Shown here: positions 1 to 14,150 of the stretch, piece by piece | How positions within the stretch are numbered: the stretch's first letter is position 1 | Layout: the number at the start of each line of letters is the position of its first letter | IMG/VR virus record: IMGVR_UViG_3300036944_000617 | Location: 1 to 40,563 of that record | Length of the DNA: 40,563 nt | DNA from: a virus | Reading direction: 5' to 3' (one strand) | Notes under the pieces: generated by a model | Seen by the model: only the letters and a program-made list of their open reading frames with translations | Databases searched by the model: none | Told to the model about the DNA's origin: nothing | Position numbers and translations under genes: made by a program

Positions 1-189
1 CGCCAACACAGCATCAACGTCGAAGAACGTAAACTTGCTCAAACAGGTCCTTGGACAAAACAAACTTTACTAGAACACTTGCCGGGTGTGCGTAGCGTGC
101 CACAAATTGTAATTGGCGACAAGCACGTTGGTGGTTTAGCTGAACTGCAAAAGGTTCTGCAAAACGGTTTGTTAGAAATGGATTGGTAA
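1..189 (+). CDS. glutaredoxin, C-terminal part (5' end outside window)
   Basis: An open frame enters from the window edge and stops at TAA 187-189, giving 62 residues. The segment SVPQIVIGDKHVGG matches the glutaredoxin core: the cis-proline loop (VPQ), the following strand and the GG that binds glutathione, with a C-terminal helix after it. The N-terminal CxxC active site lies upstream, outside the window. Glutaredoxins are small dithiol electron carriers. In phages they commonly reduce ribonucleotide reductase, and an NrdJ gene lies about 4.3 kb downstream on the same strand. The next gene starts 1 nt after this stop, so the two are probably co-transcribed. Family assignment is from the visible motif; the electron-donor role is inference. 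Confidence 0.85.
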   Translation, partial: RQHSINVEERKLAQTGPWTKQTLLEHLPGVRSVPQIVIGDKHVGGLAELQKVLQNGLLEMDW

Positions 190-190
190 G

Positions 191-1984
191 ATGATCGTAC
201 TAGGAAAGATGCGTTGGGGCAACTTGTTTAGTTATGGAGATGCCAACGAAATCGACTTCTCTGCTAGCCCACTAACACAGATTGTTGGTGCTAATGGACA
301 CGGTAAATCTAGTATTGCCTTAATCCTAGAAGAGTGCTTGTACAACAAAAACTCCAAAGGTATTAAAAAAGCAGACATTTTAAATCGCAATGCCAAAGCC
401 AAGAACTATTGGATTGAACTAGAATTCTCCAAAGACCAAGATCAGTACCTAATCAAGACTAGTCGCGGAAGTACTCAAACAGTAAAGCTGTTGAAGAACG
501 GTGATGATTGCAGCTCTCACACAGCCACTGCCACCTACAAAACCATTGAAGAAATAGTTGGCTACGATCACAAGACTTTTGCTCAGATTGTTTATCAAAG
601 CAGTGCTGCTAGCTTAGAGTTTTTAACGGCTACAGACTCAAATCGCAAGAAGTTTTTAATTGACTTGTTAAACTTGAGCAAATACGTAGAAGCCTTAGAG
701 TTATTTAAAGCAGCTGCTAAAAACATCACAGAGCAAGTAACCATAGTATCCACTAAAGTTTCCAGCAACGAAGCTTGGCTTAAAAAGTACGGTGCTGTTG
801 ACTTAAACTTAGTGGAAATTCAACCCGTTCCAGAGTCTCCTCGTGGCTTAGTAGAAGAAGTTTCTGGGATTACTAACAAGATCAAAGACATTGATCAAGT
901 TAATAAAAAGATCATACAAAACAACAAGTACAAAGAGTTGTTGGATGGTGTAAAGTTAAACTTACAAGTTAAGAAACCAGTTGCTGATTTAACAGAGCTA
1001 AAAACTTCTAAGATTGAGCTAGCACAAACTGCTAAAAATGCTGAAGCTTTTGTCGTTAAAATGAAAAAGCTAGGTCATCGTTGCGGTACCTGTGAACAAA
1101 GCATAGACAAAGAAAAAGTTAGTGAAATTGTTGAAACACACGCTGCAATTTACAAAACTGCCACAGCTCAAGTAGCTGAGTTAACTAAAACAATCTCAGT
1201 TGCGCAGGCAGAACAAAAAGCCTGGGACGAACAACTTCAGGCAAAAGAGCAATATGAAGAATATCACAACTTATACGACACAAAGCTAGACAGCACGATT
1301 TTAGATAAGCAAGAACTGGAGTTGCTAGTAAAGCAGAATAATTTAGCTATTGAACAAGTCAACCAGCAAATTAAACTGATAACAGAAGCAAATACTAAGG
1401 CTGCTGCACACAATGCTAAGATAGAAGTAGTAAAAAGTCAACTAGAAGAAATGAGTGCTGAACTCGAGGGTTTTAAGCAAGAGCTTGAAACACACACTCA
1501 TAAATTAGGCATCATGCAAGTTTTAGTAAAGACTTTTAGCAGTACAGGTTTAGTAGCTTACAAAATTGAGTGTTTGATCAAAGACCTAGAAGAACAAACT
1601 AACAAGTATTTAACCGAGCTGTCGTCAGGCAGGTTTCAGTTAAGCTTTCGCATTGCAGCAAGCGACAAGTTAAATGTTGTAATCACAGACGGTGACCGTG
1701 ACATTGATATTCTGGCGTTGAGCAGCGGCGAGCGAGCCCGAGTAAATGTATCTGCGCTACTAGGCATTCGCAGACTAATGCAAAGTTTGAGCAATAGCAG
1801 AATCAACCTATTGATCTTAGACGAAACCGTCGAAAGCTTAGACCTAGAAGGCAAGGAAAAGCTAGTAGAAGTCTTGCTGCAAGAAGATCACTTAAACACT
1901 TTTGTTATCTCTCACGGTTTCCAGCATCCCCTACTTGAAAAAGTTCATGTAGTAAAAACAAAGAATATTTCAAGGATTGAATAA
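191..1984 (+). CDS. SbcC/Rad50-like (T4 gp46-like) recombination endonuclease ATPase subunit
   Basis: This 597-aa protein has the full SMC/Rad50 layout. Walker A GANGHGKSS is at residues 33-41, a long coiled coil (about 170-290 and 305-440) is split by a zinc hook CGTC at 298-301, the ABC signature LSSGER starts at 510, Walker B LLILDE is at 540-545, and the histidine switch VISHG lies near the C-terminus. In this family the ATPase partners an Mre11/SbcD/gp47 nuclease to resect DNA ends for recombination-dependent replication. No partner is visible here, so it may lie upstream. The ATG at 191 is one base after the glutaredoxin stop. The stop overlaps the next start as TAATG, indicating translational coupling. 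The length is close to T4 gp46 and much shorter than cellular SbcC. The identification is firm at family level. Confidence 0.95.
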   Translation: MIVLGKMRWGNLFSYGDANEIDFSASPLTQIVGANGHGKSSIALILEECLYNKNSKGIKKADILNRNAKAKNYWIELEFSKDQDQYLIKTSRGSTQTVKLLKNGDDCSSHTATATYKTIEEIVGYDHKTFAQIVYQSSAASLEFLTATDSNRKKFLIDLLNLSKYVEALELFKAAAKNITEQVTIVSTKVSSNEAWLKKYGAVDLNLVEIQPVPESPRGLVEEVSGITNKIKDIDQVNKKIIQNNKYKELLDGVKLNLQVKKPVADLTELKTSKIELAQTAKNAEAFVVKMKKLGHRCGTCEQSIDKEKVSEIVETHAAIYKTATAQVAELTKTISVAQAEQKAWDEQLQAKEQYEEYHNLYDTKLDSTILDKQELELLVKQNNLAIEQVNQQIKLITEANTKAAAHNAKIEVVKSQLEEMSAELEGFKQELETHTHKLGIMQVLVKTFSSTGLVAYKIECLIKDLEEQTNKYLTELSSGRFQLSFRIAASDKLNVVITDGDRDIDILALSSGERARVNVSALLGIRRLMQSLSNSRINLLILDETVESLDLEGKEKLVEVLLQEDHLNTFVISHGFQHPLLEKVHVVKTKNISRIE

Positions 1985-2685
1985 TGGTAGATATATGTTA
2001 CTTATATATAATTAAACATAAAACCAAACCTATAGTTTATATAGGTTTAAGTAATAATACTAAGGTAAGATTTAGAGAGCATAAAAATGATAGTAGTAAT
2101 AGTAAATTAAAATCATATATTGCTCAATACGGCGTGAATGCTTTTACTTATAATGTAGTAGCGCAGGATACGCGAAGTAATATAGAGGAACTAGAAGAAT
2201 TAGTAATTCTAGAAGCTAAATTACTAGATAGACTTATTGTATGTAATAAGTTAACTGGTAGTGTGTTTACAGGGGATAGTTGTCAAAAAGGTTCCAAACA
2301 CTGGAATGCTAGTATATCCGAACAAGATGTGCAGGATATTAGAACTATATATGCTGAAGGGGGAATAACTCAAAAACAGATAGGTGAAATTTATGGATTA
2401 TCTAATAAAGTTATTTCTAAAATTACATCTGGCAATCGCTGGGCGCATGTAGAAACTCCTATAAGTACTAATTTACAAACTAATAAAGTAGCTAATAGAC
2501 GTAAACTATCTGATACACAAGTAGAAGAATTACGTGATATAGCCCAAGAACAAACCAAATTAGGTATTTTAAACATGGAGACTTTAGCTAAGAAATATAA
2601 AGTAGCTAGAGGCAGCATTCGTTTAATATTGAATGGTACTAGCTATCCTAATTTAAAAGGCCCGATTAAAGGAGTAGACTATTAA
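1984..2685 (+). CDS. GIY-YIG homing endonuclease, free-standing
   Basis: The 233-aa product has an N-terminal GIY-YIG nuclease module: LYIIK near residue 8 and VYIGLS near 19 form the two signature strands, followed by a conserved-type Arg in the VRFREHK segment and a Glu-rich helix (about 68-78) holding the metal ligand. Two helix-turn-helix-like segments follow, around 115-155 (ITQKQIGEIYGLSNKVI) and around 177-222, typical of DNA-binding tails of mobile phage endonucleases. An AAGGA Shine-Dalgarno lies at about 1973-1977. The gene overlaps both neighbours by single bases (TAATG at 1984 and 2685), so it is neatly wedged into the operon. It is strikingly AT-rich: the line 2041-2100 has 14 G/C in 60, against about half in nrdJ. 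This suggests recent mobile acquisition. It acts on DNA in the host cytoplasm; the target site is not identifiable. Confidence 0.88.
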   Translation: MVDICYLYIIKHKTKPIVYIGLSNNTKVRFREHKNDSSNSKLKSYIAQYGVNAFTYNVVAQDTRSNIEELEELVILEAKLLDRLIVCNKLTGSVFTGDSCQKGSKHWNASISEQDVQDIRTIYAEGGITQKQIGEIYGLSNKVISKITSGNRWAHVETPISTNLQTNKVANRRKLSDTQVEELRDIAQEQTKLGILNMETLAKKYKVARGSIRLILNGTSYPNLKGPIKGVDY

Positions 2686-3149
2686 TGGGCACTAATCCTA
2701 GCAAAGATAAAGGTAGTCGTGCTGAAACTTTGGTAAAAGAAGTTTTACGTAAAGCTACGGGATTACCTTTTGAGAGAACCCCACTATCTGGAGCTTTAGA
2801 TGCTAAACATGGTTTAAAATCTGATGTTTATGTACCCAAAGAAAAAAATCTATTTTCTATAGAAGTTAAACATTATAGTTCTACCTACTTAGACTATTCA
2901 GTACTTACTAGTAGTAATTCTACTTTACTAGCTTGGTGGGAACAGAGTAAAAGGGAAGCTTTTCAAAATGGTAATAAACCTTTGCTCATATATAAGCATG
3001 ATAGATCAAAAATATTTGTTGCGTTTGAGGAAGAACCTAAAAACTTAGATGCATATAGGTGGATTTTGATCAATCATGAAAAAGGTATTTTTTATACTTC
3101 TTTATTGGATGATTGGTTAGAACACGAACAACCAAAATTTATTGCTTGA
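2685..3149 (+). CDS. PD-(D/E)XK nuclease, Holliday-junction-resolvase-like
   Basis: This 154-aa protein has the pattern of small archaeal-Hjc-like restriction-fold nucleases found in phages: Glu14 in the first helix (GSRAE), a basic, glycine-containing loop (ERTPLSG), Asp47 (KSDVYV), and the Glu60-x-Lys62 pair (IEVKHY). These are the usual metal-binding residues of the fold. Such enzymes cut branched DNA during recombination or packaging, which fits its place next to a gp46-like ATPase and a FEN exonuclease. An AAAGGAG Shine-Dalgarno lies at 2668-2674, inside the end of the homing endonuclease gene, so expression is linked to it. Its base composition is intermediate (22 G/C in 60 at 2881-2940). 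The fold is a motif-level call; resolvase rather than another nuclease role is inference. Confidence 0.65.
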   Translation: MGTNPSKDKGSRAETLVKEVLRKATGLPFERTPLSGALDAKHGLKSDVYVPKEKNLFSIEVKHYSSTYLDYSVLTSSNSTLLAWWEQSKREAFQNGNKPLLIYKHDRSKIFVAFEEEPKNLDAYRWILINHEKGIFYTSLLDDWLEHEQPKFIA

Positions 3150-3174
3150 AACACAGGGCCTAACCTGCTATAAT
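3146..3174 (+). promoter_or_regulatory. sigma70-type promoter with extended -10
   Basis: TTGAAA (3146-3151) and TATAAT (3169-3174) are separated by exactly 17 bp. TGC directly before the -10 gives an extended -10. The -35 overlaps the stop codon of the preceding nuclease gene. The start point should be near 3181, giving a leader of only about 17 nt before the ATG at 3198. It would drive the exonuclease, dut and nrdJ genes as a new unit inside the plus-strand operon. Confidence 0.8.
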
Positions 3175-3197
3175 AATTTATTAAACAACATATAAAC

Positions 3198-4052
3198 ATG
3201 GCTAAAACATTTCAAACAATGAGCGTGCTTGATCCTGAGGTCTTAATGATCGTGGACAGCCTCAACCTAGCGTTTCGCTACAAACACTCAGGTGCCCTAG
3301 ACTTTGTAGACGACTATCGCCGAACTGTTGACAGCCTGCGCAAGTCGTATAGTGCAGGCAAAGTAGTAATGGCTTGTGATTCTGGTGCCAGCAAGTACCG
3401 CAAAGATCTGTACCCACTGTACAAACAGAATCGCAAAGACAAGCAAGAACTGCAAACACCCGAAGAGGCCGCTGAATTTCAGCTTTTCTTCGAAGAATTT
3501 AACCGAACCATGGAGAGTTATAACACAGGGTCATATCCCTTGTTTAGGTTTCCAGGCGTTGAGGCAGATGACGTAGCCGCTTATATCGTAAAAACTCGCC
3601 GGCACTATCCCATCAAGAAGATTGTGCTGATCTCCAGCGATCGTGACTGGGATCTTTTGGTGAGTGAGCAAGTAATGCGGTTTAGTTACGTAACTCGCAA
3701 AGAAGTAACACTCGACAATTGGACTACACACTATGACTGTGACCCTGAGGAGTATATTTCAATTAAGTGTTTACAGGGTGATTCAGGCGACAATGTACCC
3801 GGAGTAGATAAGATTGGACCAAAACGAGCCGCAGAACTTGTCAAAAAGTATGGTAGTACTTATGACATTATTGCCAATATGCCTATCTCTGGTAAGTATA
3901 AGTATATTGATAATCTAAATCAGTTTGGTGCTGACGCACTAATGCTGAACTATCAACTAATGGATTTACTAGAATTCTGTGACGAGGCTGTTAATCCACA
4001 GAATTGCACAAAGATTGATGATGTTTTGAAAGAGTATTTAAATGGTAAATGA
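3198..4052 (+). CDS. 5'-3' exonuclease / flap endonuclease (FEN/PIN family)
   Basis: The 284-aa protein shows the acidic metal centre of the T5 D15/T4 RNase H/Pol I exonuclease family: Asp20 (MIVDSLNLAFR), Asp61 (ACDSGASKYRK, followed by the basic helical arch around 67-81), Glu122/Asp124/Asp125 (VEADD), Asp148/Asp150 (SSDRDWD) and Asp195/Asp198 (GDSGDNVPG). An H3TH DNA-binding motif follows at 202-219 (GVDKIGPKRAAELV). It removes RNA primers or flaps and degrades DNA 5'-3' during replication. The ATG at 3198 has no clear ribosome site. The in-frame ATG at 3246 (residue 17) has TGAGG 5 nt upstream and starts exactly at the conserved MIVD, so it is a serious alternative start. The gene overlaps dut by 11 nt. 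Confidence 0.93.
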   Translation: MAKTFQTMSVLDPEVLMIVDSLNLAFRYKHSGALDFVDDYRRTVDSLRKSYSAGKVVMACDSGASKYRKDLYPLYKQNRKDKQELQTPEEAAEFQLFFEEFNRTMESYNTGSYPLFRFPGVEADDVAAYIVKTRRHYPIKKIVLISSDRDWDLLVSEQVMRFSYVTRKEVTLDNWTTHYDCDPEEYISIKCLQGDSGDNVPGVDKIGPKRAAELVKKYGSTYDIIANMPISGKYKYIDNLNQFGADALMLNYQLMDLLEFCDEAVNPQNCTKIDDVLKEYLNGK

Positions 4053-4488
4053 ATTACAAGTGCGGTTGGAACGCTCAGAGCTAGAACCAACTCGCGCAAA
4101 CCCGACCGATGCCGGTCTAGACTTGCGCAGTAAAAATACAGTACACCTAGAAGTAGGAAAACGTACACTGGTGGGCACAGGAGTACAAGTAAAAATCCCA
4201 GCAGGTTACGTGGGATTTTTAATTCCCCGTAGCTCGTTGAGCAAACGAGACATTGCCATGACCAATGGCGTAGGCGTGATTGATGCAGCTTATCGCGGTG
4301 AAATCATGGCCAGCCTGGTATATTGGGGCACCGGGGCAACTGGTACAATTGAAATGAATGAACGTTTTGTTCAACTAGTCATTGTTCCAGTTGCGTTACC
4401 AGATGTACTGGTACGGTATCAAGACGACGAAACATGGAACGACACTGACCGCGGTGTTGGCGGATTTGGAAGCACAGGAAAACATTAA
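4042..4488 (+). CDS. dut: deoxyuridine 5'-triphosphate nucleotidohydrolase (dUTPase)
   Basis: All five trimeric dUTPase motifs are present in order in 148 residues: I TDAGLDLR (22-29), II PRSSLSK (62-68), III GVGVIDAAYRGEI (76-88), IV RFVQLVIVP (108-116) and the glycine-rich motif V RGVGGFGSTG (137-146), which closes over the nucleotide. The enzyme hydrolyses dUTP to dUMP and pyrophosphate, limiting uracil in phage DNA and supplying dTMP precursor. Its start lies inside the exonuclease gene (11-nt overlap) and nrdJ begins one base after its stop, so the three genes form a tightly coupled unit for nucleotide supply and DNA maturation. The length is normal for the family. I see nothing unusual in it. 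Confidence 0.97.
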   Translation: MVNELQVRLERSELEPTRANPTDAGLDLRSKNTVHLEVGKRTLVGTGVQVKIPAGYVGFLIPRSSLSKRDIAMTNGVGVIDAAYRGEIMASLVYWGTGATGTIEMNERFVQLVIVPVALPDVLVRYQDDETWNDTDRGVGGFGSTGKH

Positions 4489-4489
4489 T

Positions 4490-6391
4490 ATGAACGATAC
4501 AATTTACGAAACATTTATTGCTAAATCACGCTACGCGCGGTATCTAGAAGACGAGGGCCGTCGTGAAAACTGGAACGAAACGGTTGATCGCTACTTTGAA
4601 TTTATGCAGCAGCACTTACTAGATAAGCACGACTACCTTATTCCAGAAGCTATTCTAGAAAAATTACGTACAGCTGTAGCAGCTAAAGAAGTATTACCAA
4701 GCATGCGTGCTATCATGACAGCAGGGGATGCGCTTGAGCGAGATAACACCGCAGGCTACAACTGTGCGTACCTTGCAGTCGATGATCCTAAAGCTTTTGA
4801 CGAAGCAATGTTTATTCTACTCTGCGGAACTGGGGTAGGTTTCTCAGTAGAGCGTCAATATGTTAATAAACTGCCTGAGGTACCAGACCGAATCTACCCT
4901 TCAGAGAGCTACATTGTGGTACATGACTCTAAGGAAGGGTGGGCTAAAGCACTTCGACAGCTTATTGCTCTACTTTATTCTGGTGAAGCAGCTAAGTGGG
5001 ATGTATCTGGAGTTCGTCCTGCTGGTGCACGTCTTAAGACCTTTGGTGGCCGAGCATCCGGACCCGGTCCGCTAGAAGACTTATTTCGATTTGTCACTAA
5101 AGTATTCAAGGGGGCTCAAGGTCGTAAGCTAACTTCACTAGAATGTCACGACATTTTATGCAAGATCGGTGAAGTTGTTGTAGTAGGTGGCGTACGTCGC
5201 TCAGCCATGATCTCACTGTCAAATCTGAGTGATGACCGTATGCGGCACGCTAAATCAGGTGCTTGGTGGGAACATAATGGTCAGCGCGCGTTAGCTAATA
5301 ACTCAGCTTGCTACACAGAGAAGCCGGATGTTGGAGTATTCATGCAAGAATGGCTTGCACTATATGAGTCAAAATCAGGCGAACGCGGGATTTTTAATCG
5401 TGAAGCTGCACAAAAGATTGCAGCAAAAAATGGTCGTCGTGATAAAAACTTTGAATTTGGAACCAATCCTTGTTCGGAAATTATCCTACGTCCAAACCAG
5501 TTCTGCAACCTTTCCACAGTAATTGTACGTGCTGAAGATACCGTGGAAACCCTAACTGAAAAAGTTCGACTAGCAAGTATACTAGGAACTTTTCAATCTA
5601 CTTTGACGGACTTTCCGTATCTGCGCAAAGTTTGGAAGGATAACACTGAACAAGAGCGCTTGTTAGGTGTTTCAATGACTGGCGCTCTAGACAATTCTCT
5701 GTTAAATGACCCGGACGATCCCGAACTTGGAAACCGTTTAGAAACATTAAAAGCAGCTGTAGTTGCTCAAAACGCAGAACTTGCTGCACAAATCGGTATT
5801 CCACAAAGTGTAGCTACTACAGCAATCAAGCCCGAAGGTACCACATCACAGCTTACCGATTCAGCTAGCGGTCTACACACACGTCACAGCCCTTATTACA
5901 TTCGTCGTATTCGTGGTGATGTAAAAGACCCGTTAACTCAATTTATGATTAGTGCTGGTGTTCCTGCCGAAGCGTGTGTGATGAAGCCAGATACTACTGT
6001 GGTATTTAGTTTTGCTAAAAAGGCTCCGGCTGGTGCGCTAGTACGTGATGACTTAACCGCTGTACAGCACCTAAAGTTGTGGTTAGCGTATCAGCGTTTC
6101 TACTGTGAGCATAAGCCCTCGGTAACTATTTCAGTATCTGAGAAAGAGTGGCCTTCAGTGGGTGCATTTGTGTGGGAGCACTTTGATGAAATGTCAGGGG
6201 TATCGTTCTTGCCATATGACGGAGGCTCTTATCGCCAAGCCCCTTACGAGGAATGCACAGAAGCTGAATACCTAGCACTGGCTGCGAAGATTCCAGCTGA
6301 TGTAGATTGGGATTCGATGCTGGAAGACACTGATAACGTAGTCGGAACCCAAACTTTGGCTTGCTCAGCGGACGGCTGCGAAATTACTTAA
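4490..6391 (+). CDS. nrdJ: adenosylcobalamin-dependent ribonucleoside-triphosphate reductase (class II, monomeric type)
   Basis: The ATG at 4490 is chosen because dut ends at 4488 and AGGAA lies at 4476-4480; a longer frame from 4382 would run through dut. The 633 residues match the Lactobacillus RTPR type: Cys92 (YNCAYL), the thiyl-radical loop NPCSE with Cys328 and Glu330, Cys339 (QFCNL) 11 residues later, and a C-terminal reducing pair Cys625/Cys630 (ACSADGC). These correspond in spacing to RTPR Cys119, Cys408/Glu410/Cys419 and Cys731/Cys736. The enzyme makes dNTPs from NTPs using B12 and no oxygen-dependent cofactor. It is about 100 residues shorter than the 739-aa RTPR, so some N-terminal or loop material is reduced. 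The upstream glutaredoxin may be its reductant. A homing endonuclease follows; nrdJ itself looks intact. Confidence 0.95.
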   Translation: MNDTIYETFIAKSRYARYLEDEGRRENWNETVDRYFEFMQQHLLDKHDYLIPEAILEKLRTAVAAKEVLPSMRAIMTAGDALERDNTAGYNCAYLAVDDPKAFDEAMFILLCGTGVGFSVERQYVNKLPEVPDRIYPSESYIVVHDSKEGWAKALRQLIALLYSGEAAKWDVSGVRPAGARLKTFGGRASGPGPLEDLFRFVTKVFKGAQGRKLTSLECHDILCKIGEVVVVGGVRRSAMISLSNLSDDRMRHAKSGAWWEHNGQRALANNSACYTEKPDVGVFMQEWLALYESKSGERGIFNREAAQKIAAKNGRRDKNFEFGTNPCSEIILRPNQFCNLSTVIVRAEDTVETLTEKVRLASILGTFQSTLTDFPYLRKVWKDNTEQERLLGVSMTGALDNSLLNDPDDPELGNRLETLKAAVVAQNAELAAQIGIPQSVATTAIKPEGTTSQLTDSASGLHTRHSPYYIRRIRGDVKDPLTQFMISAGVPAEACVMKPDTTVVFSFAKKAPAGALVRDDLTAVQHLKLWLAYQRFYCEHKPSVTISVSEKEWPSVGAFVWEHFDEMSGVSFLPYDGGSYRQAPYEECTEAEYLALAAKIPADVDWDSMLEDTDNVVGTQTLACSADGCEIT

Positions 6392-6413
6392 TATCAGCAT
6401 TAAAAATTAATAC

Positions 6414-6442
6414 TTGAAAATATGTGTAACCTATATTATAAT
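6414..6442 (+). promoter_or_regulatory. sigma70-type promoter for the second GIY-YIG gene
   Basis: TTGAAA (6414-6419) and TATAAT (6437-6442) are 17 bp apart, the same -35, -10 and spacing as the promoter at 3146-3174. The predicted start is near 6449. The -10 box lies in the 10-bp loop of a perfect 12-bp inverted repeat (6422-6455), so promoter access could be controlled by a protein binding that palindrome. Confidence 0.78.
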
Positions 6443-6455
6443 GTAGGTTACACAT
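6422..6455. repeat. perfect 12-bp inverted repeat surrounding a -10 box
   Basis: ATGTGTAACCTA (6422-6433) and TAGGTTACACAT (6444-6455) are exact reverse complements around a 10-bp spacer that contains TATAAT. As DNA it looks like an operator overlapping the promoter. In transcripts reading through from nrdJ it would fold into a stable hairpin, whereas transcripts started at the local promoter (about 6449) would lack the left arm. No U-run follows, so it is not a standard terminator. The ribosome site AAGGA (6466-6470) lies 10 nt beyond the right arm. Confidence 0.85.
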
Positions 6456-6475
6456 TAATTTATTCAAGGATTTTT

Positions 6476-7189
6476 ATGAGTATAGGTATATATGCACTAC
6501 ATTTTAATGAATTATTTTACATAGGTAAATCCAATAATTTAGATAGGCGCAAAAAGGATCATTTAACTAGTTTATATAAAGGCGCTGCAAACTATAAATT
6601 ACTGAAAGCTTTTTCAGAGTATGGAGAACCGAACTTTATAGTAATAGAGTACTGTAGTATTGAAGAACTTAATTCCAAAGAAATATTTTGGATCAAAGAA
6701 TTTGATAGTGTAAATAACGGATTAAACATTTCTCAAGGTGGCGATGGGGGTGGTTCGGGGATACAACATAATAGAGCTATACACTCTGAAGATACTATAT
6801 GTGAAGTATTCAAACTTCTAATATCACCTGAACTGTATACTTATAAAGATATATTTGAACTAACGAATGTATCCATATCCACTATAACTAATATAGTGGA
6901 GCATAGTGCACATATTTGGTTAAAAAATAAATTTTTTGATTCATACTATCTATTGGATGATTTTAAAAATGCTAGAAGATCAAAAGCACTATTAAAAAGA
7001 GCAGATACTATTAAAGGCATATCAAAAGATTCTTTTAATTATCCAAGTATAAAAGATCCACAAGGAAATGTATATAGCAGCATTACTAATGCTAAACAAT
7101 TTTCAGAACAACATAATTTGTCTAAAGAAGGTTTGTGTAGACTGTTTTCAGGGAAAATAAAAAGCCATAGAAAATGGACTCTAGCATAA
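6476..7189 (+). CDS. GIY-YIG homing endonuclease, free-standing
   Basis: ATG 6476 is preferred because AAGGA lies at 6466-6470. An in-frame ATG at 6422 would start inside the inverted repeat and upstream of the predicted transcript start. The 237-aa product has GIYAL at residues 4-8 and FYIGKS at about 14-19, a catalytic-type Arg in the LDRRKKDH segment, and a Glu in the SKEIFWIKEF helix (about 68-77). A glycine-rich linker near 90-97 leads to a DNA-binding tail ending in a NUMOD-like segment (DPQGNVYSSITNAKQF near 198-213, then HRKWTL at the end). It is very AT-rich (15 G/C in 60 at 6841-6900), unlike nrdJ just upstream. No intron boundary is seen, so it is free-standing. A strong terminator follows. 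Confidence 0.88.
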   Translation: MSIGIYALHFNELFYIGKSNNLDRRKKDHLTSLYKGAANYKLLKAFSEYGEPNFIVIEYCSIEELNSKEIFWIKEFDSVNNGLNISQGGDGGGSGIQHNRAIHSEDTICEVFKLLISPELYTYKDIFELTNVSISTITNIVEHSAHIWLKNKFFDSYYLLDDFKNARRSKALLKRADTIKGISKDSFNYPSIKDPQGNVYSSITNAKQFSEQHNLSKEGLCRLFSGKIKSHRKWTLA

Positions 7190-7193
7190 AAGG

Positions 7194-7229
7194 AAAGCCC
7201 CTTAACCGTAATGGTTAAGGGGCTTTTTT
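7194..7229. terminator. bidirectional rho-independent terminator between convergent operons
   Basis: A 14-bp perfect stem (AAAGCCCCTTAACC 7194-7207 with 7213-7226) has a 5-nt loop and a T-run to 7229 on the plus strand. On the minus strand the same hairpin is followed by CCTTTTATG, so it can serve both directions. It sits between the plus-strand endonuclease stop (7189) and the minus-strand stop at 7228, which overlaps the T-run. Confidence 0.93.
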
Positions 7230-7494
7230 ATGCTTGCTTGGTATGTTCTTTTACATAAGTTACAAACTCCTCGGCCAGCATAGACAGCGAAGTCTTTCCT
7301 TGCTCACTTTTGATGAAGTCGTTTACTTTTGTTAAGTTCATAGACAAGCAAACTTGCTGATCTACAGTTAAGGCTTGCCCAAAAGAAACATACGTATCAA
7401 ACTTCTGAAGAGCACTTAGCACGGCAACTGGATTGCTGCGAACAGCTTGAACCAGCATTTCGGGAGTGATAACTTTTAGTAGATCAGCGAGCAT
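7228..7494 (-). CDS. hypothetical protein, 88 aa
   Basis: This small, mostly helical, soluble-looking protein has no signal peptide or membrane segment and matches no family I recognise. It is the last gene of the minus-strand transcription unit and ends in the bidirectional terminator. It starts 3 nt after the stop of the upstream gene without a clear ribosome site, so its translation is probably coupled. The sequence shows short amphipathic helices (for example PEMLVQAVRSNPVAVLSALQ) and a C-terminal basic end. A virion or tail-accessory role is only suggested by its position behind probable structural genes. Confidence 0.7.
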   Translation of the reverse strand: MLADLLKVITPEMLVQAVRSNPVAVLSALQKFDTYVSFGQALTVDQQVCLSMNLTKVNDFIKSEQGKTSLSMLAEEFVTYVKEHTKQA

Positions 7495-7497
7495 AGA

Positions 7498-8694
7498 TTA
7501 GCTTACGCGAGTGTTGGCAGCAGTTTGTGAGTTACCTGACACAGTGCCTGAACCAATGTTCAATACACCTTGTTGGATGTGTTGATTTTGTTGGTACAGA
7601 GCCTGTAGGTGAGCACCTAGCACAGCAAGTTGCTGAGCTTGTTGCTGTGATTGTTGTTGCTGAGCTACGGCTTGAGCAGTGTTAGTGTTGCTGATGGTAA
7701 TGTTACCTTCAACACCACGTAGACGGCCTTCATTGCGTAGTTCGGTTACTTCGTTGGCTAGTTGAGTGATTAGACGTGAGTCATTGGTCTTGTCGATTGA
7801 CTGGATTAAGGCACGAGTCTTGTCACCGTCAGCTGTGACTGCTTGATTTAGCAGCCATGAGCTTTGTAGAGCTTGTGTAGCCGCGTCTTTGGTAGCCAGC
7901 AGATTGGCGGTACCTTGTGCCACAACAGCAGCTGCAGTATCAGAGAATCCTTTTTGGTTCATCTGAGTTTGCATATTTTGATTGGCCATAATAGCAGAAT
8001 TACCTGCTCCCACAGCACCAATTACTGAAGCAGTAGTTTGAGAAATGCTGTTGTTTAGGTCCATCTGAGCACCGGCTAGTGCTAGTTGAATTTGACCTTC
8101 GGCTAAGGGTACAGCTGCTTTAATATCTCCAAGACTTTGCATAATTGCAGCGTTGTTGACAACTGATTCAACACCTTGTAGTGTTGCTGCAGGTCCAACT
8201 ACACCGTCAACGCCGCCACCAAGACCGTTAAGACCGTTGCGACCTAGTAAGGCACCGCCTAGGATACCGCCTAGTAAGCCAGCTCCTAGACCACCGCCTA
8301 GAGCTCCGCCCATACCTTGATTGGGGTTAGCAAATAAATTTACTGTTTCCATTGGATTCATGATTTTTCCTTGATTGATTTCTGTGCCCGTATAGGCACT
8401 TGGTTCACTTGTTGCAACGTCCATACTTGCAGAACGTTGCGTTACTTGTAAGGTATCCACGTTATCACCGTACTGTATAATAACAGTAGAAGCTGATTCA
8501 CTCGATCCCTTAACGTCAAAATAAACAACATCGCCTGACCTTCCATATAGTCGATCTAAAGGTTTAGCTTCTTGATCGTTTATGTAAGCATGGACTTTTG
8601 TTGAAGGAGGTTGTACTGTTACCAATATCATACCATCCGTTGGTATAACAACTTTGTTAGTAGCGCCACCTGTGGGAGTTTCTAATGACCACAT
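7498..8694 (-). CDS. probable structural protein with Gly-rich hydrophobic core and Gln-rich tail
   Basis: The start at 8694 is preferred, with AAGGA 6 nt upstream, over an ATG at 8724 that would overlap the preceding gene; this gives 398 aa. Roughly residues 1-85 look like a beta-sandwich domain. A strongly glycine-rich hydrophobic stretch follows (GMGGALGGGLGAGLLGG near 125-141), then a long alpha-helical, Ala/Asn/Gln-rich part, a short beta segment with ISNTNTA near residue 335, and a Gln-rich run (AQQQQSQQQAQQ) before a low-complexity end. The glycine stretch could be membrane-active or a packing element. I do not recognise the family. The context (after collagen and fibre-like genes, under the 10456-10484 promoter) suggests a virion protein; that is inference. 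Confidence 0.7.
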   Translation of the reverse strand: MWSLETPTGGATNKVVIPTDGMILVTVQPPSTKVHAYINDQEAKPLDRLYGRSGDVVYFDVKGSSESASTVIIQYGDNVDTLQVTQRSASMDVATSEPSAYTGTEINQGKIMNPMETVNLFANPNQGMGGALGGGLGAGLLGGILGGALLGRNGLNGLGGGVDGVVGPAATLQGVESVVNNAAIMQSLGDIKAAVPLAEGQIQLALAGAQMDLNNSISQTTASVIGAVGAGNSAIMANQNMQTQMNQKGFSDTAAAVVAQGTANLLATKDAATQALQSSWLLNQAVTADGDKTRALIQSIDKTNDSRLITQLANEVTELRNEGRLRGVEGNITISNTNTAQAVAQQQQSQQQAQQLAVLGAHLQALYQQNQHIQQGVLNIGSGTVSGNSQTAANTRVS

Positions 8695-8713
8695 TGCTGT
8701 TCCTTGTTGAAAG

Positions 8714-9316
8714 TTATACAGCACTCAAGTACTGTACTGTTCCTACTAAACGAGTATTGGTCTTTACATCTGCTTGAGTTAGCTGAGTTAATGATTTTTT
8801 TGGTTCTTTTTGGAACCATAAATCGCCTTGTGTACTGGTTGCAATTACTGAACCAGAAATATAATTAGTGTTTGTATTCATGTCTTCAAAGTAACCTATT
8901 AACACAACACCAACGTATCCTGTACTGTTTTCGGAACTAAAAGGTAGTCCAGAAAGTTTAAGAGTTGAAGCGTTACTACCGCCTACTATAGTAGTTACAG
9001 TAATGTCAAAAGTGCAAGTAACTAAATTGCCGGATTTTACATAACGTGCAGTTTTGGTATTTAAAGAAATAACACCTGGAACGCTGGGCGTTAACACAGG
9101 AACCCAGTTGCCTACTATGCTAGATCCACCGCTTGCAGAAATTGTTCCGTCTACTGCAACTGTAATTCCACTACCAATTTTAACTACGCCTAGTTGTACA
9201 GCAGTAGCAATTTCTGCATCTAGTACAACAGGCACTATGGCATTTACAATTGGAGCAGGAGTTTGTTTTAAGGCTAAACCTGCTAGCGTAGTAGCCGTGG
9301 GTTTTGTGTAAGCCAT
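8714..9316 (-). CDS. fibre-like structural protein
   Basis: The 200-aa product begins MAYTKPTATTL. It contains the segment LGVVKIGSGITV (about 42-53), a turn-rich repeat common in phage tail-fibre shafts, and a C-terminal beta-rich domain with ARYVKSGNLVTCTFDI, a pattern frequent in terminal domains of phage fibres. Its start overlaps the preceding stop as TAATG. It shares the MAY start and the GVV/GSGI pattern with the upstream gene. No signal peptide or catalytic motif is visible. It is probably a tail or head-decoration fibre; the receptor and position in the virion are unknown. Confidence 0.65.
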   Translation of the reverse strand: MAYTKPTATTLAGLALKQTPAPIVNAIVPVVLDAEIATAVQLGVVKIGSGITVAVDGTISASGGSSIVGNWVPVLTPSVPGVISLNTKTARYVKSGNLVTCTFDITVTTIVGGSNASTLKLSGLPFSSENSTGYVGVVLIGYFEDMNTNTNYISGSVIATSTQGDLWFQKEPKKSLTQLTQADVKTNTRLVGTVQYLSAV

Positions 9317-9858
9317 TACACCACGTTCCAGTTAGTTCCGCGGAAGATGAAAGTTGCTGATGCATTTGAAGCAAATGCAAGCACAAAACCTGCAGGACTA
9401 GCAATACCTTCTACTGTGTCTAGTAAATTTCCTACAACGGTTACGTCAGCCAAGTTGCCAAATTCTGATTTTACAACGTATTCATCACCATCTGTGCCAG
9501 CTGGCAGAGTAAGAGTAACCGGAGCAACTGCAATTACGCCAACGTAGTAGTCTGTGGTTAAAATAGGGCCAGTAACTGCTACTAAACGTGTGGCTACTGG
9601 AGGAGTAGCCGTCGCATTAATTGTCAGGGTTGGAGCAACACCAGTAATTGTAATACCTGTGCCAGCTGTTAGGGTGGTAATTACGCGATTGCCACTATCA
9701 GTAACGGCACCTGTGCTGGTTACTGTTGCAAATGTTGGGTTAGCTGTAGTTGCCACACTTTGTGGTAGGTCGATTACGCCAGCAACAACGTTGATGTTTG
9801 TGCCTACTTCTACAACACCAAAATTAGTGGTGGAAGCTAAGGGAGTATTATAAGCCAT
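9316..9858 (-). CDS. fibre-like structural protein with C-terminal TDYxxxV domain
   Basis: This 180-aa protein starts MAYNTP after an AAAGGAAA ribosome site. Residues 1-35 carry the GVVEVGTNINV shaft-type repeat. NPTFATVTSTGAV (about 40-52) is a familiar fibre repeat. The last 85 residues form a domain shared with the neighbouring 9869-10393 product: TDYYVGVIAVAP, LPAGTDGDEYVVK and a final GTNWNVV. Such domains are common at the ends of phage fibres and in multi-copy decoration proteins. It overlaps the next gene by one base. A virion role is strongly suggested; the exact location is not. Confidence 0.65.
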   Translation of the reverse strand: MAYNTPLASTTNFGVVEVGTNINVVAGVIDLPQSVATTANPTFATVTSTGAVTDSGNRVITTLTAGTGITITGVAPTLTINATATPPVATRLVAVTGPILTTDYYVGVIAVAPVTLTLPAGTDGDEYVVKSEFGNLADVTVVGNLLDTVEGIASPAGFVLAFASNASATFIFRGTNWNVV

Positions 9859-9868
9859 GATTTTTCCT

Positions 9869-10393
9869 TTAAATTACATTCCACTCTGTGCCCGTAAACA
9901 CAAGAGTGATGCTAGCATAATTGACATTAATAACATAGCTTGCCAACCCATCAATGGTTGTTGAAGCTGTTACAGTGATTGGATTTGTTTGTGCGTCACC
10001 GTCTGAGTCTTTTACAACAAACACAGTTCCTAGCGGACTAGCCGGTAATATAATGCTTGCTGGAGCAGCTACATCAACTGCCAGTAAATAGTCTGTTGAC
10101 AGTACTAAGTACGGTGTAGCATTTACCAAAGTAACGGACACAGGACTTGGGTCACCAGGTGGACCAGGCGGGCCGGGTGGGCCGGGTGGGCCCACTGGTC
10201 CGGGCGCAGAGTTTATAACATTTATGGTGTCATTGCCTGGGCCAAAAAAACCAAAGCCGCCAAATCCATCAAGCATTTGAGATTGTTGCAGAGGACCTAG
10301 TGTTTGTGATTGTTGTAGTGGGCCAAACATTTGTGATTGCATAGGTCCAATAAACGGCATGGGCGCTGGCAAGGGCAGTGGAGATTGAAACAT
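9869..10393 (-). CDS. collagen-like structural protein with C-terminal TDYxxxV domain
   Basis: The 174-aa product has three parts. A Pro/Gln/Met-rich N-terminus with imperfect GPLQQSQ repeats (about 18-45) leads into a Gly/Phe-rich stretch. A short collagen-like triplet run follows (GPVGPPGPPGPPGPPGD, about 65-81). A C-terminal beta domain (about 85-174) is paralogous to that of the next gene (STDYLLAVDV, VFVVKDSDGDA, final GTEWNVI). An AAAGGTG ribosome site precedes the ATG. It is the first gene of a unit under the promoter at 10456-10484. It is likely a trimeric spike or fibre, since collagen triplets in phages form trimeric rods. Function beyond that is unknown. Confidence 0.7.
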   Translation of the reverse strand: MFQSPLPLPAPMPFIGPMQSQMFGPLQQSQTLGPLQQSQMLDGFGGFGFFGPGNDTINVINSAPGPVGPPGPPGPPGPPGDPSPVSVTLVNATPYLVLSTDYLLAVDVAAPASIILPASPLGTVFVVKDSDGDAQTNPITVTASTTIDGLASYVINVNYASITLVFTGTEWNVI

Positions 10394-10455
10394 AAGGCAC
10401 CTTTGTGTAAGATAGTTTGGTGTAAAAACTTTTACTCCAATTTCAATATAAGTAT

Positions 10456-10484
10456 ATTATATACTTTGTGCAAAATAAAATCAA
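10456..10484 (-). promoter_or_regulatory. sigma70-type promoter, minus strand
   Basis: Read on the minus strand, TTGATT (10479-10484) and TATAAT (10456-10461) are separated by 17 bp. It lies between a terminator (10518-10544) and the collagen-like gene starting at 10393, so it should start a separate transcript for the last five genes (10393 down to 7228). The leader would be about 55 nt. Confidence 0.75.
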
Positions 10485-10517
10485 CACCAAAATTTTATGC
10501 CTTAAAATTTGGACGAG

Positions 10518-10544
10518 AAAAAGCCCGCGTAAAAGCGGGCTTTT
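10518..10544 (-). terminator. rho-independent terminator
   Basis: A 10-bp perfect stem (AAAAGCCCGC 10519-10528 with GCGGGCTTTT 10535-10544) has a 6-nt loop. On the minus strand it ends in TTTTT and lies 4 nt past the stop codon at 10548, closing the lysis/PhoH unit. The reverse strand also has a T-run, so it could act both ways, but no plus-strand gene points at it. Confidence 0.9.
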
Positions 10545-10547
10545 GTG

Positions 10548-10928
10548 TTAGTTGTCTATAAAAGCAAGCAGTTGAGCTGCCTGATCCATTTCTTTTGCAT
10601 TGTCGCGTTCTCGCATAATCTGATCACGTTTTTCACGACTCCAGGAAAATCCACCGTCTCCGCCCCACAAGTCCCAAGCTACTCGGCCCTTGCTGGGAAA
10701 CCCTTCTTCGCCTGAGCTAAAACCAGTGGCCCTTTTATCTACTTCATGGCGCGAAAAGAAGCTGTACATGCGCAGTACTGTTGAGGCTGACAGGGGTTCA
10801 CGATCTTTTAGCTGATTTGCTCTAGCCAGCCCAACTAGGGTACCGCCGGGCTTGCCTTCCGATTTCCATTTTAAGGCTCTTTTTGCGGCAGATGCCATGC
10901 CTTCTGTTGGTGTGTATGTCTCTGCCAT
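10548..10928 (-). CDS. conserved phage protein, 126 aa, WDLWGGD motif
   Basis: The start at 10928 is chosen for the AAAGGAAC ribosome site just upstream; a longer frame from 10988 would run deep into phoH. The protein has an N-terminal helical part (AAKRALKWKSEGKPGGTLVGLARA), then FFSRHEVD, a glycine/serine stretch and WDLWGGDGGFSW. This order of motifs (GGT-VG-ARA, F-RHEVD, WDLWGGD) recurs in proteins of many tailed phages, where it is usually left unnamed. I cannot assign a function. Its close pairing behind phoH and position before the terminator suggest a late or accessory role. Confidence 0.75.
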   Translation of the reverse strand: MAETYTPTEGMASAAKRALKWKSEGKPGGTLVGLARANQLKDREPLSASTVLRMYSFFSRHEVDKRATGFSSGEEGFPSKGRVAWDLWGGDGGFSWSREKRDQIMRERDNAKEMDQAAQLLAFIDN

Positions 10929-10938
10929 ACGAGTTCCT

Positions 10939-11682
10939 TTATTTACGGTAAGCAATAATAATCTGCTTACACATTTTTGATCGTACAATGTCTTCGTCTA
11001 TGAATCTTACAACTTCAATGCCTGGTAAACCTTCTAGGCGTTTTACTGCATCCATTAAACCTGAGTCTGAAATATCGCTCTGGTCTTGATCTCCTGAAAG
11101 AATAATTTTAGTATTCTTGCCGATTCGGCTAAGCAGCATCTGAAACTCTTGCTTTGTCATCTGTTGGCACTCGTCAACTAAAACAATAGCGTTGTCAAAT
11201 GTAGCTCCACGCATAAATCCCAGTGGCCGTGGTTCAATGGTTTTTGACTTTAAGGCATACTCATAAAACCCACTACCTAAACTTTTATGAAACACAGAGT
11301 CAAAAGGTTCTAGGTAAGGTGCATATTTTTCTTCTAGGCTACCGGGTAAGAATCCTAAACCTCTACCTGTTTCTACGTTGGGTCTGGTTAAGATAATTCT
11401 GTCTACTCGTTTGTAGTACAGCTCCTGCGCAGCGTAACTTGCTGCAACGTATGTTTTACCTGTACCGGCTGAACCGATGCCAAAAACAATATCATTGTTT
11501 TGTATGGCTTCTAAATAAGTTTCCTGAATGTAGTTTAAGGGCTTTACTTCGCGAAATGTTGGAGCTTGAGAAACTTTGGTTTCTGGGACTTCAACACGTT
11601 GCTTGTTAGCACGTTGCTTGCTTGCACTAGGAGAAAATAAGTCTTCACCACGACGTGCTCTTTTACCGCTGGATCTTGCCAT
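10939..11682 (-). CDS. phoH: PhoH-like ATPase
   Basis: The 247-aa protein has a variable basic N-terminus (1-45) and then the PhoH P-loop core: Walker A GSAGTGKT at 70-77, TRPNVETGRGLGFLPG at 99-114 (the family's hallmark), Walker B IVLVDE at 166-171 followed by CQQM, and a sensor-like SGDQDQSD segment near 197-204. An AAGGA ribosome site precedes the ATG. PhoH proteins are cytoplasmic ATPases related to superfamily 1 helicases. They are common in marine and freshwater phages and are linked to phosphate starvation in bacteria, but their phage function is unsettled; an RNA-related role has been proposed. It lies just downstream of the lysozyme, an unusual neighbourhood. Confidence 0.95.
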   Translation of the reverse strand: MARSSGKRARRGEDLFSPSASKQRANKQRVEVPETKVSQAPTFREVKPLNYIQETYLEAIQNNDIVFGIGSAGTGKTYVAASYAAQELYYKRVDRIILTRPNVETGRGLGFLPGSLEEKYAPYLEPFDSVFHKSLGSGFYEYALKSKTIEPRPLGFMRGATFDNAIVLVDECQQMTKQEFQMLLSRIGKNTKIILSGDQDQSDISDSGLMDAVKRLEGLPGIEVVRFIDEDIVRSKMCKQIIIAYRK

Positions 11683-11704
11683 AAGTATCCTTTTTTAATT
11701 GAAC

Positions 11705-12172
11705 TCAGCCCTGTAAAAGTAGGGCTTCTGCTTGTCGGCGGCGGGTCAAACCTGGTAATACGCGTCCTGCCGCTTTATTCCACTTTAAAATTTCTTGACT
11801 TGCGCCAGTCCAGTCTTTGGCATCAATACGTTTTTTAAAAGTTGAAATTCTATAGTTACCCAATCCGCAATTATAAGCAAAACTAATTACGGCGGCCACT
11901 TTTACGTCAGGTGCTGAAGCTAAACTTGGGCTCAACTTCAGTAATTCCTGATAAAAGTAAAGTAAATGTTTGTTTAGCTCTTGTTGTGCTTTTTCCTGAG
12001 TCCATATAGTAGTTTTAGTAACGTCTGGACCAGTACAACCCCAACCTATGGTCCAAGGCTCGCGGCCTGTGCCAGGGTCAGGGTATGCTGCACAACCGCC
12101 GTCTGGTAGTCTGCGAGCATAACCTTCAAAAGGTTTTACCAGCAAATCACCGGCTAAGTTAACGGCTTTCAT
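11705..12172 (-). CDS. endolysin, GH24 (T4-type) lysozyme
   Basis: This 155-aa muramidase-type endolysin has the GH24 catalytic layout: Glu16 (KPFEGY), Asp32 (AYPDPG) and Thr41 (WTIGWG), then a helical lobe with AAVISFAYNCGLGNYRIST and the typical C-terminal GLTRRRQAEALLL. It hydrolyses the MurNAc-GlcNAc bond of peptidoglycan. There is no signal peptide or SAR segment, so it should need a holin to reach the wall; the holin gene lies directly upstream and overlaps by 4 nt (ATGA), which couples their translation. The spacing between Glu16 and Asp32 is longer than in T4 lysozyme (E11/D20). The family call is firm; the exact Asp is by position. Confidence 0.94.
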   Translation of the reverse strand: MKAVNLAGDLLVKPFEGYARRLPDGGCAAYPDPGTGREPWTIGWGCTGPDVTKTTIWTQEKAQQELNKHLLYFYQELLKLSPSLASAPDVKVAAVISFAYNCGLGNYRISTFKKRIDAKDWTGASQEILKWNKAAGRVLPGLTRRRQAEALLLQG

Positions 12173-12651
12173 TTTTGAGGTTTTTCTATGGTACGTCCCA
12201 CAAACCAGAATGTAAGAATCATGTTCAACATAGCAAAGTCTTCTGAGTGCCAGTTGGCTCGCAACACTAAATTCCAGTCTGCGTTATGTTGCAGCGCATA
12301 GATAATTATCAGTGTTTTTGTAAGCACATACATGCCAAACAGCACATAGGTAACTACTGGTCGTACTAGGGCACTTAAAGCTGCTACCCACCGATAACTA
12401 TTTGAAGCACTTTGGGATTGCTCTTTGAACGCTTCTTGAATTGCTCCCAGTTGTGCAGTGCTGTGGTCCACGTACTTTTGTTCCAAGACAATGGCACCGC
12501 GCTGCTTTTCTAGGTCAGTTTGTAGGCTGAACATTTTCAGTTCGTGTGAGCGTTCATTTACTCGGTCAAACTGCTTGATTAATTCAGGTGCTAAGCGAAA
12601 CAATCCGCCCAGCACGCTGCCTAAAATACCGTGTGTTAAAAATTCTAACAT
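12169..12651 (-). CDS. holin, 3-TM GTA-type
   Basis: The 160-aa product fits the 3-TM holin family first described in gene transfer agents: an N-terminal Gly/Leu-rich helix (3-20), a charged helical linker (28-80), a long hydrophobic block (about 88-120, LVRPVVTYVLFGMYVLTKTLIIIYAL segment) and a last membrane segment MLNMILTFWFVGRTIEK (141-157) ending in the family's FWF-G-R pattern. It would form lesions in the inner membrane that release the lysozyme encoded next, with which it overlaps by 4 nt. It overlaps the preceding glycosyltransferase by 7 nt. I see no spanin genes nearby. Confidence 0.8.
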   Translation of the reverse strand: MLEFLTHGILGSVLGGLFRLAPELIKQFDRVNERSHELKMFSLQTDLEKQRGAIVLEQKYVDHSTAQLGAIQEAFKEQSQSASNSYRWVAALSALVRPVVTYVLFGMYVLTKTLIIIYALQHNADWNLVLRANWHSEDFAMLNMILTFWFVGRTIEKPQK

Positions 12652-13715
12652 AGTTTGCTTTCTTTGATAAGCCGCAAGTTTGCCTGTAAGCGAGGATCAT
12701 GAGGTTCTAAGTCTACCGCCTGTTTAGCATAGCGTAGTGCTTCTGGAAATAACTGCAAGTTCCAAGCTGCTATGGCTGCTAAGTCATGTGCTTGGTAACC
12801 CCATACCAGTGGATCACATGTGTATACCAGCTCTCTGTCTACAATACGTAAGGCACGGGTAGCTGCCTGATAGCAGGCTGGCCAGTCTGATTTCTTATAC
12901 GCCAGCATTGCCAGTCCACACCAAGGTTCTCGGGTATTAGGAGCTGTTTTTGAGGCTTCTTCCAGCCAGTGTTCTGCTGCAGCCAAGTCGCCTAGGTTCT
13001 CAAAACATTGGGCCAGTAAACGCTGTGCGTAGCACCGCTCGTTTGGCCAAGTTGCGCTGGGCATGTTCAAGTATAGTTGCAGTGCTTGAATAGCTTCACT
13101 CCAACGTGAATAAAAAGTCAACTCACGTGCGTAGTAGAATGCGTTTCTGGAGCAGTAAGGATCTTCTGTGACTGCTAAGTGTAGCAGGTCTAGGTACTGA
13201 CCACGAGACTTTGTGGGATCTGGGTGGTGGGATACTAGGAGTTCTGTGGTTTCTGCCCAGGTTTCTGTGATCCTGGCATCTGCGCGGGGATACTCGTGGC
13301 AGGGGTGATGCCAGTGGTAGCCGTGGCGAGCATGAATCTTTTCGTACTGAAAACGAATGCCTTGACCCCAGTCAAATCCATAACGTAGGCGTGTGGTGCC
13401 GGGCGTCCAGGCTTGTTCCAGCTTTTCTCGCCAACCCGGTTCCAGCACCTCGTCTAAGTCTAGTGAAACACAAACATCTACGTCACGAGGCACTAGGCTC
13501 AGCGCAGCGTCGCGCGCTTTGTCAAACCGCCAAGGCGTAACACAGATGCTATATACCTGAGCCCCCAGGCTTTCGGCTAAAGATTGCGTGTTGTCTGTGC
13601 TGCCTGTGTCTGCAATTATCACACAATCTGCTGCTTGAGCAGACTGCATAAAACGCTCCACAAACTGTTCTTCGTTTTTTGAAATAGCATACACTGCAAT
13701 CTTTAGTTTACTCAC
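12645..13715 (-). CDS. family 2 glycosyltransferase with C-terminal TPR-like repeats
   Basis: The start codon is GTG at 13715 with TAAGGAA 6 nt upstream. The 356-aa protein opens with a GT-A fold: AVYAISKNEE (8-16), the nucleotide-binding ADTGSTDNT (35-43), and the metal-binding DxD in SLDLDE (Asp86/Asp88). Then come about 180 residues of helical pairs (about 175-350) with TPR features such as WSEAIQALQLYL, LGDLAAAEHWLEEA and FPEALRYAKQAVDLEP. GT2 enzymes move sugars from nucleotide donors; a TPR tail usually binds a protein partner, as in O-glycosylating systems. It sits between fibre genes and the lysis cassette. Its target (virion protein, DNA or host surface) is not shown by the sequence. 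Confidence 0.88.
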   Translation of the reverse strand: MSKLKIAVYAISKNEEQFVERFMQSAQAADCVIIADTGSTDNTQSLAESLGAQVYSICVTPWRFDKARDAALSLVPRDVDVCVSLDLDEVLEPGWREKLEQAWTPGTTRLRYGFDWGQGIRFQYEKIHARHGYHWHHPCHEYPRADARITETWAETTELLVSHHPDPTKSRGQYLDLLHLAVTEDPYCSRNAFYYARELTFYSRWSEAIQALQLYLNMPSATWPNERCYAQRLLAQCFENLGDLAAAEHWLEEASKTAPNTREPWCGLAMLAYKKSDWPACYQAATRALRIVDRELVYTCDPLVWGYQAHDLAAIAAWNLQLFPEALRYAKQAVDLEPHDPRLQANLRLIKESKLC

Positions 13716-13724
13716 TGTGATTCC

Positions 13725-14138: not shown

Positions 14139-14150
14139 AAAAATTCCTGA

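Follow-up and report, generated by a model that had tools for sequence, protein, structure and literature searches.

The locus lies in a 40,563-nucleotide stretch of viral DNA (the window), where a predicted gene for a free-standing homing endonuclease follows the ribonucleotide reductase gene nrdJ, and where the space between the two genes holds a promoter-like sequence within a long inverted repeat. The features of the locus, with the basis for each, are as follows.

4382-6391, plus strand: nrdJ, adenosylcobalamin-dependent ribonucleotide reductase (RNR-II insertion and barrel domains in Pfam; tblastn matches to class II reductases of phages)
6401-6476, plus strand: full RNA hairpin (MFE -25.7 kcal/mol, z -4.86)
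6414-6419, plus strand: -35 box TTGAAA (sequence; sigma70 consensus scan)
6422-6433, plus strand: 5' arm of a perfect 12-bp inverted repeat (sequence, repeat finder)
6437-6442, plus strand: -10 box TATAAT, at the hairpin tip (sequence and consensus scan)
6444-6455, plus strand: 3' arm of the perfect 12-bp inverted repeat (sequence, repeat finder)
6466-6470, plus strand: Shine-Dalgarno sequence AAGGA, predicted to be paired in read-through RNA
6476-7189, plus strand: predicted free-standing GIY-YIG homing endonuclease gene, 237 aa (Pfam, PHROGs, AlphaFold/Foldseek)
7194-7226, no strand assigned: GC-rich intrinsic terminator flanked on either side by T runs (sequence, scan, comparison with relatives L010, L011 and L109)

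The endonuclease belongs to the GIY-YIG family, as shown by its catalytic domain and motif residues. It matches PF01541 above the cut-off (E 1.6e-6) and carries the PHROG annotation 'homing endonuclease', and residues I5, Y6, Y15, G17, E69 and N84 are invariant among its homologues, R25 being nearly so. For the AlphaFold model (mean pLDDT 82.6, pTM 0.41), the top Foldseek matches among solved structures are those of the I-TevI catalytic domain (1mk0 and 1ln0, TM 0.81-0.84 by target), and the model also matches I-HmuI weakly (E 0.055). The homologues have I-HmuI/NUMOD-like modules, several of them in tandem in L113, and the C-terminal part of the protein resembles these modules. The open frame extends 5' to an ATG at 6422; in the closest full-length homologues the protein begins at the place corresponding to 6476 (MTVGIY, MTIGIY and MTCGIY vs MSIGIY here).

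The nrdJ stop codon occupies 6389-6391, and the true start of the gene is probably later than the listed 4382. In two relatives whose nrdJ is 81% (L010) and 78% (L011) identical, the endonuclease gene is absent and a terminator starts within ~10 bases of the nrdJ stop, while the corresponding terminator in the window (7194-7226) sits 3' of the endonuclease gene. Given this displacement, nrdJ mRNA should enter the endonuclease gene, which is expected from the sequence comparison to sit inside the nrdJ transcription unit. L109, taken from the 93.8-kb contig of L097, offers a gene-free site as do L010 and L011. It aligns at 84% to window positions 14-4499 and at 85-87% from 7187 on; in place of window 4500-7186, its positions 6820-8866 contain a different nrdJ (39% amino acid identity) and a 68-aa frame, after which comes the same terminator. 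So clean a replacement indicates that nrdJ and the endonuclease gene were exchanged as a block, with its right edge at the endonuclease stop codon. Homing genes have been described close to ribonucleotide reductase genes and at the borders of exchanged blocks (PMC10448857). Unrelated GIY-YIG genes directly adjoin nrdJ in L023 (5910), L070 and L085 (minus strand), suggesting that the ends of nrdJ are a recurrent insertion site; in L023 the gene lies directly 3' of nrdJ, without spacer or hairpin.

Between the two genes, TTGAAA and TATAAT are separated by 17 nt, and a perfect 12-bp inverted repeat with a 10-nt loop (TATTATAATG) is placed so that its symmetry is centred on the promoter, with the endonuclease ATG (6476) 21 nt 3' of the repeat. 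The positions assigned in the preliminary description to both boxes, the 17-nt spacer, the repeat, its loop and the ATG all proved correct by sequence and repeat finder. With 11/12 consensus positions, this is the joint best sigma70-type match in a scan of window positions 1-15000, where promoter-like matches are common (34 vs 29.6 expected). From the placement of the boxes, a local transcription start would be expected at ~6447-6450, inside the 3' arm. The window has three perfect repeats with arms of at least 12 and loops of at most 20, where 60 whole-window dinucleotide shuffles average 0.03, and shuffling of the local 84 nt produced a repeat with 12-bp arms in 4 of 5000 trials. The same TTGAAA-17-TATAAT arrangement, with a TG before the -10 box (extended -10), stands 5' of the exonuclease gene at 3146-3174. 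This exonuclease promoter is kept in the relative L097 (~2664-2692), which suggests that the phage uses promoters of such a type. Elsewhere in the window, a perfect 15-bp inverted repeat with a 6-nt loop (CTGCAGGTACCGCAG, 16085-16120) lies near the 5' end of the minus-strand open reading frame 14151-16175.

At the RNA level the 12-bp repeat is the core of a longer stem that runs with short bulges from 6401 to 6476. The segment 6392-6490 was folded and its significance taken from 200 shuffles, none of which matches the stability of the native fold (-25.7 kcal/mol). The computed pairs are 6401-6408/6469-6476, 6413-6418/6463-6468, 6419-6421/6458-6460 and 6422-6436/6441-6455, closing a loop at 6437-6440. 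A self-search aligns the region to its own reverse complement over 6409-6472, and the repeat finder reports a 38-nt imperfect palindrome (6401-6438/6439-6476). Within the fold, A6466, A6467 and G6468 of the AAGGA pair with 6413-6415, G6469 with U6408 and A6470 with U6407, while the first base of the start codon, A6476, is paired with U6401. The preliminary description had stated that the hairpin does not directly cover AAGGA; this is wrong, because all five of its bases are paired in the full stem, which extends as far as the start codon. UUCAAG of the ribosome-binding site pairs with 6413-6418 (CUUGAA), a strand that overlaps most of the -35 box. No Rfam match was found within the window.

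It had also been proposed that read-through mRNA from nrdJ carries the whole hairpin and that RNA started at about 6449 does not. The computed folds agree with this: RNA begun there would lack the 5' arm, and its ribosome site is freer. The unpaired probability of the ribosome site is ~0.05-0.2 in read-through RNA vs ~0.4-0.6 in local RNA (starts 6440-6449), and the cost of opening 6463-6478, from the Shine-Dalgarno sequence to the AUG, is 5.9-6.0 kcal/mol in the former vs 2.6-2.9 kcal/mol in the latter. Among 32 gene starts examined in the window, the endonuclease ribosome site is the least accessible (0.06). When the core and the 3' flank were held fixed and the 5' flank was shuffled, hiding was equal or better in 29 of 2000 trials, and 9 of 119 random genomic 30-mers of similar GC used as the 5' flank hide the ribosome site equally well. 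By these controls, chance is a very unlikely source of the core and a moderately unlikely one of the part that extends over the ribosome site, so that the conditional support for the outer stem is moderate.

On this computed support, the locus is probably best explained by silencing of the I-TevI/segB type, in which the read-through message would be silenced and a local promoter would bypass the block. As the comparison with relatives suggests, the mobile GIY-YIG gene would lie between the nrdJ stop and the terminator that closes nrdJ in those relatives, so that nrdJ mRNA would run into it. In such read-through RNA, the 6401-6476 hairpin is predicted to pair the ribosome site and to reach the start codon, which would prevent translation of the endonuclease. 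The gene's own promoter appears to be built into the 5' half of the hairpin: its -35 box forms part of the 5' arm, its -10 box occupies the tip, and transcription is predicted to start within the 3' arm. RNA beginning at that point would lack the 5' arm, leave the ribosome site much freer and be translated. Expression would then depend on the local promoter and be shielded from transcription of nrdJ.

Comparable arrangements are known from phage T4 and its relatives. In early and middle transcripts, the ribosome site of I-TevI is sequestered in a stable structure; this structure also contains a late promoter, and RNA made from that promoter has no 5' arm (PMC2988022, PMC3014915); similar arrangements have been described for I-TevII, I-TevIII, T4 segB and mobE of the Aeromonas phage Aeh1 (PMC2988022, PMC3014915). 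When run through the same folding test, T4 I-TevI and segB fold as published (PMC2988022). The present locus shares with I-TevI, I-TevII and I-TevIII a ribosome site that is predicted to be hidden by a hairpin in long transcripts and exposed in the shorter RNA from an internal promoter (PMC2988022), and with I-TevI and I-TevII the GIY-YIG catalytic domain. The T4 genes are intron-encoded and I-TevI has a late promoter, whereas the gene studied here is free-standing, its promoter is sigma70-type and the -35 box pairs the ribosome site. T4 segB, likewise a free-standing GIY-YIG gene, has a promoter of its own within a hairpin that sequesters its ribosome site; it differs in lying among tRNA genes, in its predicted late promoter and in a short, tight stem, compared with the long, bulged one here. 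In Aeh1, mobE is a free-standing homing gene in a ribonucleotide reductase unit whose ribosome site is hidden by a hairpin (PMC2988022, PMC3014915), but it encodes an HNH enzyme and splits nrdA of a T4-like phage, whereas here a GIY-YIG gene follows an intact nrdJ.

One trait of T4-type gating, a hairpin that pairs the Shine-Dalgarno sequence in upstream-initiated RNA, is present in the computed fold. A promoter of the T4 late type was not found, the promoter-like match being of the sigma70 type. In I-TevI the use of a T4 late promoter means that the hairpin sets timing; a sigma70-type promoter does not imply late timing, and we infer that the role of the hairpin here would be insulation from nrdJ transcription. 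Hairpin gating as such has been described for T4-like phages; this case would add a phage that is not T4-like and a promoter of the sigma70 type. If correct, it would suggest that gating emerges whenever a selfish gene inserts into a heavily transcribed unit, here again that of a ribonucleotide reductase, and the locus would offer a simple example of promoter sequence that also serves as the strand pairing with the ribosome site.

Other readings of the palindrome have to be weighed against this one. It could be a DNA operator: binding over the -10 box, whether by the endonuclease or by a dimeric repressor of phage or host origin, would block transcription. This was the model that the preliminary description favoured over an RNA hairpin. 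The perfect symmetry centred on the promoter is consistent with an operator, as is the fact that I-TevI represses its own promoter (PMC2988022), and loosely similar repeats occur at 34290-34320, inside a giant open reading frame (GTGTTAAACCT-9-AGGTTTAACAC), and at 2026-2048 (AAACCTATA-5-TATAGGTTT). The repeat itself is nonetheless single in the window and absent from the records of four relatives at up to 3 mismatches, its half-site occurs in the window at chance level (22 found vs 20 expected), and its exact arms have 0 matches in a viral contig collection; on these scans a conserved operator was rejected. Homologues lack such a palindrome, the hairpin of L111 differing in sequence. DNA binding by I-HmuI/NUMOD-type modules is not twofold symmetric, and this enzyme would therefore not be expected to use a perfect palindrome as its operator. 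An operator of the I-TevI type, resembling the homing site, was not found either, since local alignments of the promoter region with the nrdJ 3' end, the gene-free sites and the neighbouring region, as presumed homing sites, are no better than those of shuffles. Symmetry alone also leaves unexplained why a bulged outer stem covers the ribosome site, and we regard an operator as unlikely. Of the two models of the preliminary description, the RNA hairpin is the better supported, as the full stem pairs the ribosome site, does so in read-through RNA only, and belongs to a gene that appears to lie in the nrdJ unit; the operator finds no support other than the symmetry.

RNase III could instead cut the duplex, separating nrdJ from endonuclease mRNA and setting message stability. 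The enzyme accepts a duplex of ~24 bp, and ~24 nearly continuous base pairs are available in this one; processing of this kind is moreover compatible with the gating explanation. As an account of the locus it seems quite improbable, leaving unexplained both the extension of the stem over AAGGA to the start codon and the promoter at its tip. That the hairpin acts as a terminator or attenuator, stopping most nrdJ transcripts before the endonuclease gene, is very unlikely because the T run is missing: although the consensus scan flags the hairpin as terminator-like, its tail (TAATTTATTC) has no real T run and its stem is AT-rich, in contrast to the GC-rich terminators with long T runs at 7194-7226 and 10519-10544, and the outer stem is not accounted for. 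An AT-rich spacer might also fold by chance without any regulatory role, and the base composition of the region and the commonness of promoter-like matches fit this; set against the 4/5000 local shuffles with 12-bp arms, the hairpin z of -4.9 and the 29/2000 for ribosome-site pairing, chance is hardly credible.

Conservation of the arrangement was sought among phages and genome contigs. Megablast against phages gave no match to the region, tblastn gave a single phage match at 36% identity, the genome-contig search found no relative and the relatives of the phage lack the endonuclease gene, so that none of these searches returned a relative with both gene and hairpin. One full-length homologue (35%) lies in L111, directly 3' of a phage-encoded tmRNA (1040-1359) that scores best as a permuted (two-piece) tmRNA, RF04321. 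It is preceded by TTGCTA-17-TATAAT, whose -10 box overlaps a different hairpin that hides GGAGG (unpaired 0.01), an arrangement resembling that of T4 I-TevI; the z of this hairpin is only -1.55, and the model predicts only a weak and uncertain freeing of the ribosome site in the locally started RNA. The homologues in L110, L112 and L113 begin directly at the end of the upstream gene and have no comparable hairpin. In this small sample, the combination of hairpin and promoter is seen at genes that stand apart from their neighbour and is absent from those tightly coupled to it.

Two sets of gene starts were surveyed, with 49 GIY-YIG vs 557 other starts in set 1 and 89 vs 329 in set 2. Arms of at least 12 within 85 nt upstream were found in set 1 for 4/49 GIY-YIG vs 1/557 other genes (L151 and L152 being identical), and long upstream perfect palindromes of this kind in set 2 for 1/89 vs 4/329. 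As set 2 showed no excess, a general enrichment of long upstream palindromes at GIY-YIG genes was rejected. A perfect 3' arm of at least 9 that overlaps the ribosome site was seen in 8/138 vs 4/884 overall and 5/89 vs 1/329 in set 2, a criterion picked post hoc after set 1 and a count inflated by the near-duplicates L151/L152 and L261/L262. The window gene falls outside this class, its ribosome site lying in the bulged outer stem. Ribosome-site accessibility from the partition function differed in set 1 only, and the promoter-plus-hairpin signature (1/49 vs 9/557) was not enriched. Among non-endonuclease genes, those at L015 (6539), L013 (3431), L043 (1104) and L066 (1627) have upstream promoter-like boxes within a hairpin covering the ribosome site or the start codon, and in L015 and L043 the -35 box belongs to the 5' arm; the overall count of such cases was not above expectation.

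Promoter-in-hairpin insulation might be a module that recurs among phages not belonging to the T4 group; this can be proposed only tentatively, and we hold it to be somewhat doubtful. In such a module, a gene's own boxes would hide the ribosome site of upstream messages, so that a mobile or inserted gene would be expressed only by itself. Besides the window gene, endonuclease-gene candidates for it are L111, L151/L152, L153, L261/L262 and L263, and the candidates among other genes are L015, L013, L043 and L066.

A second GIY-YIG gene, with an HTH part, occupies 1984-2685 of the window. In L010 (1356-2057) the same slot is filled by an unrelated 233-aa gene, methyltransferase-like by eye, and a conserved ribosome site is common to both. 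The palindrome AAACCTATA-GTTTA-TATAGGTTT (2026-2048) runs across the YIG codons of this second gene, and its core resembles the promoter palindrome, possibly by chance. The corresponding sequence in L097 (1543-1565; AAGCCTATA...TATAGGCTT) differs from it by two synonymous changes, and the pairing is kept.
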